Source of the DNA: Clostridia bacterium | Lineage (GTDB): Bacteria > Bacillota > Clostridia > Oscillospirales > Acutalibacteraceae | Assembly (NCBI GenBank): GCA_017625095.1 | Contig: JAGALQ010000044.1 | Location: 94,379-158,378, forward strand | DNA length: 64,000 bases | Direction: 5' to 3' | Part shown: positions 15,643 to 45,832 of the stretch, in pieces | Position numbering within the stretch: the first letter of the stretch is position 1 | Layout: every line of letters starts with the position of its first letter | Position numbers and translations under genes: made by a program | Notes under the pieces: model-generated | Told to the model about the DNA's origin: nothing | The model's input: the letters and a program-made list of their open reading frames with translations, nothing else | The model's database searches: none

Positions 15643-15779
15643 GCAATCCTCCGTCTTTTGCTTCGCAAAATCCACCTCCTTTCAAAAGGAGGTTATACCT
15701 AATTGACAGCGAAGTAAATTTCTTTATCAAAAGCTCCTTTTGAAAGGAGCTGTCGAGCGCAAGTGAGACTGAGGGTTGG
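15643..15779. repeat. Palindromic repeat pair A (subtype II minus, subtype I plus)
   Basis: Two two-hairpin repeats face each other across about 40 bp. The left one (15643-15692, minus orientation) is CCTCCTTTTGAAAGGAGG, then a TTTTGC/GCAAAA hairpin and GACGGAGG (subtype II). The right one (15733-15779) is GCTCCTTTTGAAAGGAGC, TGTC..., then GACTGAGGG (subtype I). The same architecture recurs at 16.5, 18.5, 45.2, 45.4 and 45.8 kb. Confidence 0.8.
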
Positions 15780-16504: not shown

Positions 16505-16683
16505 ACTGCTGTATCGGGTTAATCGGTACAGCGGTGTTTGTTTTTTTGCAATCCTCCGTCTTTTACTTCGCAAAATCCACCTCCTTTCAAAAGGAGGTTA
16601 TGCTTTGATTTTATATCGCTGTAAACTGCTTTGTCAAAAGCTCCCTTTTAAGGGAGCTGTCACCGTAGGTGACTGAGGGTTGT
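16505..16683. repeat. Palindromic repeat pair B with adjoining hairpin
   Basis: A second copy of the unit at 15.6 kb: a terminator-like hairpin (16505-16547), a subtype II repeat in minus orientation (16548-16597), a spacer, then a subtype I repeat (16640-16683) reading GCTCCC ... GGGAGC, TGTCACC, GGTGACTGAGGG. The left hairpin has one T-G wobble absent from copy A. Short direct repeats of AATAAAG/TATAAAG (about 16468-16500) lie just upstream. Confidence 0.78.
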
Positions 16684-18469: not shown

Positions 18470-18512
18470 GCTCCTTTTGAAAGGAGCTGTCACCGCAGGT
18501 GACTGAGGATTG
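18470..18512 (+). repeat. Palindromic repeat copy C (subtype I)
   Basis: GCTCCTTTTGAAAGGAGC, then TGTCACC-gca-GGTGACTGAGG. Upstream it shares the spacer TATCGCTGTAAA...CTTTGTCAAAAG with copy B, while the subtype II half is degraded. Confidence 0.75.
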
Positions 18513-45218: not shown

Positions 45219-45269
45219 TCTCTCCCTCAGTCAGCTTTGCTGACAGCTCCCTCGTCAGAGGGAGCTTGG
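45219..45269 (-). repeat. Palindromic repeat L (subtype I, minus orientation)
   Basis: On the minus strand GCTCCCTCTGACGAGGGAGC is followed by TGTCAGC-aaa-GCTGACTGAGGG. It lies between rubrerythrin and the DUF559 gene. It is almost identical to repeat R (45758-45806). Confidence 0.88.
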
Positions 45270-45310
45270 ACAGATTAACAGTGATATATGATTGGTGGCT
45301 ATGATTTGAC

Positions 45311-45339
45311 TTGAAAAATTTTTGCTAAAATGATATATT
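45311..45339 (+). promoter_or_regulatory. Predicted promoter of the DUF559 gene between repeats L and M
   Basis: TTGAAA (45311-45316), 17-bp spacer, TATATT (45334-45339). A transcript would start near 45346 and include repeat M in its leader. Confidence 0.55.
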
Positions 45340-45357
45340 TAAGATGCACTAAACAAA

Positions 45358-45411
45358 CCTCCCTCTGATGAGGGAGGTGGCAAAACCGAAGGTTTTGACG
45401 GAGGGAGAGAA
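45358..45411 (+). repeat. Palindromic repeat M (subtype II) supplying the DUF559 ribosome site
   Basis: CCTCCCTCTGATGAGGGAGG, then CAAAACC-gaa-GGTTTTG and ACGGAGGGAGAG. The last GGAGGGAGA serves as the ribosome-binding site of the DUF559 ATG at 45413. Same architecture as the left halves of pairs A and B. Confidence 0.88.
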
Positions 45412-45412
45412 A

Positions 45413-45832
45413 ATGAAAGATTATAATAAATCCAACATCCCTCTGGCTAAAGCATTGAGAAAGAATATGACTCCATGGGAAAGAAAACTGTGGTATCAAT
45501 TTCTGCGTAGTTATCCTGTAAGATTTCAGCGACAAAAAGCGATAGGCGATTATATAGTTGATTTTTACTGTGCCAAAGCTCGTTTAGTTATCGAACTCGA
45601 CGGCGGCGGTCATTATACAGCGGAACAATCACAAAAAGATAAGTTTCGTACCAATGAATTGGAAAGTATGAATTTAAAAGTAATAAGAATTTGCAATTTG
45701 GATATTGACCGTAATTTCAACGGTGTATGTGAATACATAGATTTATACGTTAAGAAATCTCTCCCTCAGTCAGCTTCGCTGACAGCTCCCTCATCAGAGG
45801 GAGCCGGGATAAAAAAATTCAAGGAGAAATAA
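45413..45832 (+). CDS. DUF559 (Vsr-like, PD-(D/E)XK) endonuclease domain protein
   Basis: A 139-residue protein of the DUF559 family, related to very-short-patch-repair endonucleases. The N-terminal LRKNMTPWERKLWYQFLR and central FQRQKAIGDYIVDFYC lead to VIELDGGGHYT, where the acidic residues and the later KVIRI strand fit the nuclease core. It is bracketed by repeats M and R. The ribosome site is part of repeat M, and the C-terminal tail KKSLPQSASLTAPSSEGAG is encoded by repeat R. AT-rich relative to neighbours. Nuclease activity is inferred; a role in moving or processing the repeats is speculative. Confidence 0.88.
   Translation: MKDYNKSNIPLAKALRKNMTPWERKLWYQFLRSYPVRFQRQKAIGDYIVDFYCAKARLVIELDGGGHYTAEQSQKDKFRTNELESMNLKVIRICNLDIDRNFNGVCEYIDLYVKKSLPQSASLTAPSSEGAGIKKFKEK
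45758..45806 (-). repeat. Palindromic repeat R (subtype I, minus orientation) inside the DUF559 gene end
   Basis: On the minus strand GCTCCCTCTGATGAGGGAGC then TGTCAGC-gaa-GCTGACTGAGGG. It differs from repeat L at only a couple of positions and is translated as the C-terminal tail of the DUF559 protein. Confidence 0.88.

Follow-up and report, generated by a model that had tools for sequence, protein, structure and literature searches.

A DUF559 nuclease gene set among two-hairpin palindromic repeats: a candidate REPIN-like mobile system in Clostridia

RAYT (TnpA-REP) is a Y1 HUH transposase that occurs with REP and REPIN sequences as one gene flanked by the repeat units, and the BIMEs of E. 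coli are built of alternating Y and Z REPs. REPINs are described, in the excerpted text of PMC3116915, as short palindromic units whose inverted doublets form the repeated unit. We analyzed a 64,000-nucleotide stretch of a Clostridia bacterium contig (the window), in which a gene for a DUF559 nuclease lies among palindromic repeats. The system is like REP and REPIN-RAYT in its palindromic units, inverted doublets, single unit-flanked gene and genome-specific repeat type. However, its units are two-hairpin structures that come in subtypes I and II, and the gene module is itself multi-copy in some genomes. The gene adjoining the repeats was not a Y1 HUH gene, and the linked enzyme is a DUF559 protein with a predicted PD-(D/E)XK/EDxHD fold. 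The parallel with RAYT-maintained REP sequences drawn in the initial annotation therefore stands for the layout and fails for the enzyme, and because the enzyme differs the system is REPIN-RAYT-like in layout and not a member. As in BIMEs, two unit subtypes alternate in orientation, but the sequence and the enzyme are different.

Each unit has two hairpins: the first stem-loop (for example CTCCCTC-TGAY-GAGGGAG) is followed by the sequence TGKC, and the second by GACKGAGG. The main differences between types I and II are at the closing base of stem 1 and at the base after GAC. Pattern matching confirmed the positions of the three units, L, M and R, that had been proposed to surround the gene (Table 1). 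L and R were 92% identical over 52 nt, and the 31-nt core common to them occurred twice in 64 kb and never in 100 shuffles. The terminus of M (...GGAGGGAGAG) lies immediately 5' of the start codon. Because M ends just before this ATG, its GGAGGGAG 3' end supplies the gene with a ribosome-binding-site-like stretch (GGAGG), as had been suggested. The in-frame reading of R as the C-terminal tail of the protein was likewise confirmed, and residues 121-133 of the structure model had pLDDT values mostly below 50. The gene-less pairs at 15.6 and 16.5 kb had been taken for the same pair as L and M; they share its architecture, but their stems belong to the CTCCTTTTGAAAGGAG and CTCCCTTTTAAGGGAG subtypes and differ from the CTCCCTCTGAYGAGGGAG subtype of the window gene's own units.

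Table 1. Repeat units and the nuclease gene in the window
Feature	Position in the window	Strand	Basis and remarks
Gene-less inverted pair (II minus, I plus), CTCCTTTTGAAAGGAG subtype	15647..15775		strict pattern
Gene-less inverted pair (II minus, I plus), mixed subtype	16552..16679		strict pattern
Lone unit I	18470..18509	+	strict pattern
Unit L, type I, two-hairpin repeat	45219..45270; strict pattern 45224-45265	-	pattern match; also in relative G005
L-M spacer	45271..45357	+	promoter-like stretch TTGACT ... ATATTT, judged by eye; spacer common to G005
Unit M, type II, left end of module	45358..45410; strict pattern 45358-45405	+	pattern; pairwise alignment ends
DUF559 (PF04480) nuclease gene, 139 aa	45413..45832	+	Pfam profile, fold match, structure model
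Unit R, type I	45757..45809; strict pattern 45763-45804/5	-	module's right end ~45805

The source genome contains four full-length DUF559 genes plus a partial match. As judged by eye, all four full-length genes lie amid two-hairpin repeats, each with its own stem, and the CTCCTTTTGAAAGGAG subtype of the gene-less pair flanks one of the others (L001). The strict pattern found 43 units in this genome (22 + 21) and its reversed control none. On contigs C15, C17, C20, C25, C28, C38, C42 and C50, the distance from many units to a contig end is at most a few hundred bases. The assembly breaks at units, so their copy number is probably underestimated.

The window protein is a member of DUF559 (E 1.3e-27; 96.2 bits against a curated cut-off of 20.6). 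Profile searches matched it to 3hrl, a structural genomics entry from Neisseria (E 2e-28), and to the catalytic domain of the Vsr-like homing endonuclease I-Bth0305I (3r3p, E 3.6e-5); the other matches, at E 0.08 and weaker, were not meaningful. In a Foldseek search with a structure model (pLDDT 84), 3hrl and 3r3p gave TM-scores of 0.82 and 0.81 by target length, and Vsr (1cw0) was a weak fold match, far below both. The model thus has a PD-(D/E)XK/EDxHD-like nuclease fold; the initial annotation had called the enzyme PD-(D/E)XK-like. D50, E61 and D63 are invariant and H67 is nearly invariant in the family alignment, and these four are likely candidates for active-site residues. The closest enzyme kin is the EDxHD/Vsr-like group. 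Besides 3hrl, I-Bth0305I is the closest solved catalytic domain; unlike that enzyme, the DUF559 protein has no DNA-binding extension, and its gene has palindromic repeat ends and unrelated insertion surroundings. The excerpt of PMC9403480 terms a cyanobacterial DUF559 gene an EDxHD homing endonuclease. A profile comparison of 2005 placed YcjD, the DUF559 protein of E. coli, together with Vsr (PMC1189080, as excerpted), which likens the window protein to Vsr-type nucleases; unlike Vsr-type repair nucleases and YcjD, it has a setting of repeats.

The proposed association of repeat and nuclease extends well beyond the window. We applied a structural unit detector to the best 80 of 572 confirmed DUF559 relatives in the genome collection, chosen regardless of repeats, and in 73 of the 80 loci it found one unit or more at a distance of up to about 200-250 bp. 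Within 200 bp of these genes there were 119 units in 35.5 kb (3.35 per kb). The 143 kb at 500-1500 bp contained 7 units and the 202 kb beyond contained 12, which gives 0.05-0.06 per kb and a local enrichment of 57- to 68-fold. The commonest layout, II(+) gene I(-), was seen at 28 of the 80 loci. A second set from genus and class searches, 51 of 55 loci after four partial or odd matches were left out, had a unit within 260 bp in 40 cases (2.87 versus 0.19 per kb). In the other 11 loci of this set, inspection by eye showed repeats of the two-hairpin kind, or very similar ones, on one side of the gene or both.

The repeats were also commoner in genomes with a DUF559 gene, as the initial annotation would have it. 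A small DUF559 gene, matched at E 1e-10 or better, was present in 42 of 291 genomes of the class, the source genome included. At least one unit was found by pattern in 39 of these 42 genomes, compared with 17 of the 249 without such a gene (p 2e-31, relatedness uncorrected). Since one module brings its own two units, higher thresholds were also applied. At least three units occurred in 27/42 versus 9/249 genomes, at least five in 23/42 versus 8/249 (p 3e-16, relatedness uncorrected), and at least ten in 14/42 versus 6/249. Of the three DUF559 genomes with no pattern match (G208, G272 and G160), the first two were inspected, and both showed diverged repeats by eye beside the gene (L187 and L198, respectively). 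Conversely, the 17 unit-bearing genomes with no small DUF559 gene included G207 (154 units), G061 (43) and G244 (28). Repeats can therefore survive the loss of the gene or exist independently of it, provided that it was not missed.

The ends of the module were mapped at 27 of 46 group-A-like loci (the window included), those with both ends recognizable, by 336 pairwise alignments with 3.4-kb surroundings. Left alignment ends fell 0-4 nt outside the hairpin of M in 250 alignments, and right ends fell 0-5 nt outside the hairpin of R, also in 250; only 20 of the 336 ran more than 60 nt past an end. AAG preceded M, a C(T/G)(A/T)GG-like sequence followed R, and inspection of 26 module ends showed no visible target-site duplication. 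Several genomes carry more than one module, each copy with a DUF559 frame: G342 has three, 92-94.5% alike, and G330 (91%), G329 (91%) and G307 (82%) have two each. Within these pairs the homology begins, on the left, 1-5 nt beyond the hairpin, and on the right it extends past the unit in some pairs. With copies 82-94.5% alike, no very recent jump was caught. At a separate locus (L013, 3001-4287), the DUF559 frame continues through the repeat into a downstream frame that resembles RibF (riboflavin kinase/FAD synthetase) by eye; here the module seems to have created an in-frame fusion naturally.

The window site was filled in one relative (G005) and insert-free in four (G001, G002, G006 and G007), where the intergenic DNA was too diverged to fix the exact junction. 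G003 had other DNA there, and the other four members of the genus gave no two-sided match to the site among the matches listed. The E. coli gene ycjD, well covered in 3362 of 5426 genomes, was dropped as a clean test of empty and filled sites, since both ycjD-less strains examined (L322 and L324) carry an opposite-strand efflux operon between sapF and fabI. This is in line with the available part of PMC12817139, by which the interval carries either ycjD or the efflux operon. The repeat downstream of ycjD occurred at a median of only 4 places per genome having any.

As with REPINs, inverted doublets of palindromic units were found as a repeated element, both in the window pairs and in G249. From a longer match list in the latter genome, 20 doublets of 113-119 bp (CACCTCATC...GATGAGGTG) were chosen, and their flanks were unrelated. 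These doublets (L238-L257) often lie within degenerate heptamer-like arrays (CTAATCA, CTATTCG ... CTACGTT). The second hairpin of unit I varied with compensation among them. Across 30 unit-I sequences from many loci, stem 2 was paired in 90.9% of cells, compared with 76.4% in shuffles and 13-45% when slid. Double changes occurred in 24 cells against 7.6 in shuffles, while the count of pairs changed on both sides and the further pair types (two of the five measures) were not above shuffles.

A search by joined flanks for empty doublet sites in genus g27 was followed by alignment of 6 of 8 sites. At these six the neighbors mostly carry other repeats and are not clean empty sites. At three (L251, L239 and L243), another species has, at the same position and equally oriented, a doublet of a different subtype or half of such a doublet, which could reflect either exchange in place or renewed insertion. 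Doublet-free sites were seen for L251 in G303 and for L254 in G061 and G026, but their flanks had diverged too far for the junction to be placed exactly. At another locus of this genus (L171), synteny ends right after the upstream gene and no empty site was found.

The type of nuclease is matched by the type of repeat. The 80 proteins were sorted by the motif near residue 20 into groups A (TPWE, 44), B (TKEE, 16) and C (TPQE, 15), with 5 others. Stems were read by inspection at loci with detected units. The loop was TGAY at 35 of 40 group A loci, TGTG(T/C)AA at all 15 of group B and CGRG at 12 of 13 of group C. Part of this match is linkage, because a repeat and a gene that are linked co-diverge even if the enzyme ignores the repeat. 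For this reason the stem types were also counted genome-wide in 43 genomes (15 A, 15 B and 13 C), each gene's own pair included; reversed controls gave 0. Type A repeats were found in 15/15 A genomes (305 copies), 2/15 B (2) and 2/13 C (18). Type B repeats were found in 10/15 A genomes (64 copies), 15/15 B (128) and 6/13 C (17), and type C repeats in 0/15 A genomes, 4/15 B (14 copies) and 11/13 C (34). Fisher p values for types A, B and C were 3e-8, 0.003 and 1e-5, uncorrected for kinship. Judging from the spacing, some off-type genomes also carry modules of the second group; an example is G342, which belongs to group C and has three modules of type B.

Loci from other phyla, intended as controls, comprised 12 of the 25 plasmid matches listed (41 records in all) and both phage matches. 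By eye, GC-rich palindromes lay on one or both sides of the gene in most of them. Inverted similarity between the two flanks exceeded the 95% point of the controls (29) in 9 of the 14, and in 7 it was also above the highest score of any control (46); at L308, L309, L311, L319 and L321 it was not above the 95% point. The DUF559 gene lies between sufB and sufC in Sphingomonas (L314) and, with a long inverted repeat, between paaD and paaZ in Deinococcus (L316), and both operons are insert-free in relatives. The Azospirillum record contains the flanking repeat at 35 places and the Sinorhizobium record at 10, but that of Synechocystis has a single copy. This small sample suggests a broader rule that links DUF559 genes with repeats. 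In Azospirillum lipoferum 4B (NC_016623.1, 254982-256510), a gene for a GIY-YIG nuclease occupies the sufB-sufC interval, which is perhaps a hot spot for nuclease genes. In a Pseudanabaena plasmid (L320, 1882-6282), a very long gene that adjoins brxC of a BREX cluster contains an in-frame DUF559 domain, and palindromic repeats flank this domain on either side.

Taken together, the observations support the module structure, the mobility and the matching of enzyme to repeat, and it seems fairly probable that the window element belongs to a mobile system of REPIN-like kind whose enzyme is a homing-type nuclease. The module is small, about 450 bp (45358-45805), with a unit II, the DUF559 gene and an inverted unit I, and lies beside unit L; it would be an autonomous copy of the element, and units would also travel gene-less as inverted doublets of about 115-130 bp. 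The nuclease may recognize the stem-loop of its own repeat type and cut at the folded unit, perhaps on single-stranded or cruciform DNA, for which single-strand exposure at replication is a possible occasion. Host repair would then copy a module or doublet into the break, or swap one doublet for another, as in homing. Enzymes of this nuclease fold hydrolyze DNA and, unlike HUH or DDE enzymes, are not expected to join ends, so in this scheme the joining would be left to host recombination. Cutting or spreading of the repeats by the nuclease is what we infer from the correlation between the two.

Several observations stand against this reading. A hydrolytic nuclease with no joining activity cannot alone explain insertion at unrelated sites. 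Units in 17 of 249 genomes lacking a small DUF559 gene, one of them with 154, point against strict dependence on the gene, and the type B repeats of 10/15 A and 6/13 C genomes against clean type matching. The lack of target-site duplication at the 26 ends and of a very recent jump, and the g27 orthologous sites that mostly hold other repeats, also count against it.

The alternative that survives best, which we nevertheless regard as unlikely, makes the DUF559 gene a passenger and the repeats the ends of a miniature element moved by another transposase. The module does have inverted repeat ends and gene-less short derivatives, as MITEs and IS elements do, and its units persist in genomes with no DUF559 gene. 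Unlike those elements, however, it contains no recognized transposase and shows no target-site duplication. Y1-type transposases were present in 9 of 15 genomes chosen for units or DUF559, but a search for Y1_Tnp (IS200/RAYT) found none in the other six, which hold 17 (G249), 111 (G285), 154 (G207), 43 (G061), 31 (G229) and 47 (G114) units; dependence of the units on such enzymes is thus disfavored. A passenger gene is also difficult to reconcile with the genome-wide prediction of repeat type by enzyme group and with the other inverted repeats around DUF559 genes of some other phyla.

It is less probable still, and quite improbable in our view, that the enzyme is a Vsr-like repair nuclease that acts on repeat hairpins or mismatches for genome upkeep and is kept close for regulation, with the repeats not moving. 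The weak fold match to Vsr would agree with such a role, as would Caulobacter VsrA, a Vsr-like DUF559 protein that triggers a DNA damage response once methylation is lost (PMC12907096, in its excerpted text). Sharp module ends in unrelated surroundings, several modules per genome and insertion into conserved operons argue for movement instead. Coincidence, in which the repeats are abundant terminator-like sequences that share intergenic hot spots with DUF559 genes or meet them by chance, draws on the intergenic location of the units and on the many repeat kinds gathered at g27 intergenic sites, but the 57- to 68-fold local enrichment and the genome-level association lie so far from chance that we reject it as highly improbable.

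This REPIN-like system may be one case of something wider. We raise it tentatively, as an idea somewhat less likely to be right than wrong, that DUF559 nucleases of several phyla serve a broad class of selfish palindromic repeats that arose apart from REP-RAYT. Each nuclease lineage would carry its own family of hairpin repeats and homogenize it through cutting and repair of the homing type, and the gene-less offspring would include many of the abundant GC-rich palindromes of bacterial genomes. The open-licence literature searched, some of it available as excerpts, contained no report of a DUF559-repeat link that we could find, which is weak evidence of novelty. Overall, the findings point to a little-noticed kind of mobile DNA. 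If this is true, a role would emerge for DUF559, a family of unknown function in many bacteria, and an enzyme for a large class of palindromic repeats so far unexplained; REP-like elements would then have two separate origins, with unrelated chemistry. Should the enzyme prove to drive the repeats, the system would merit a class of its own.
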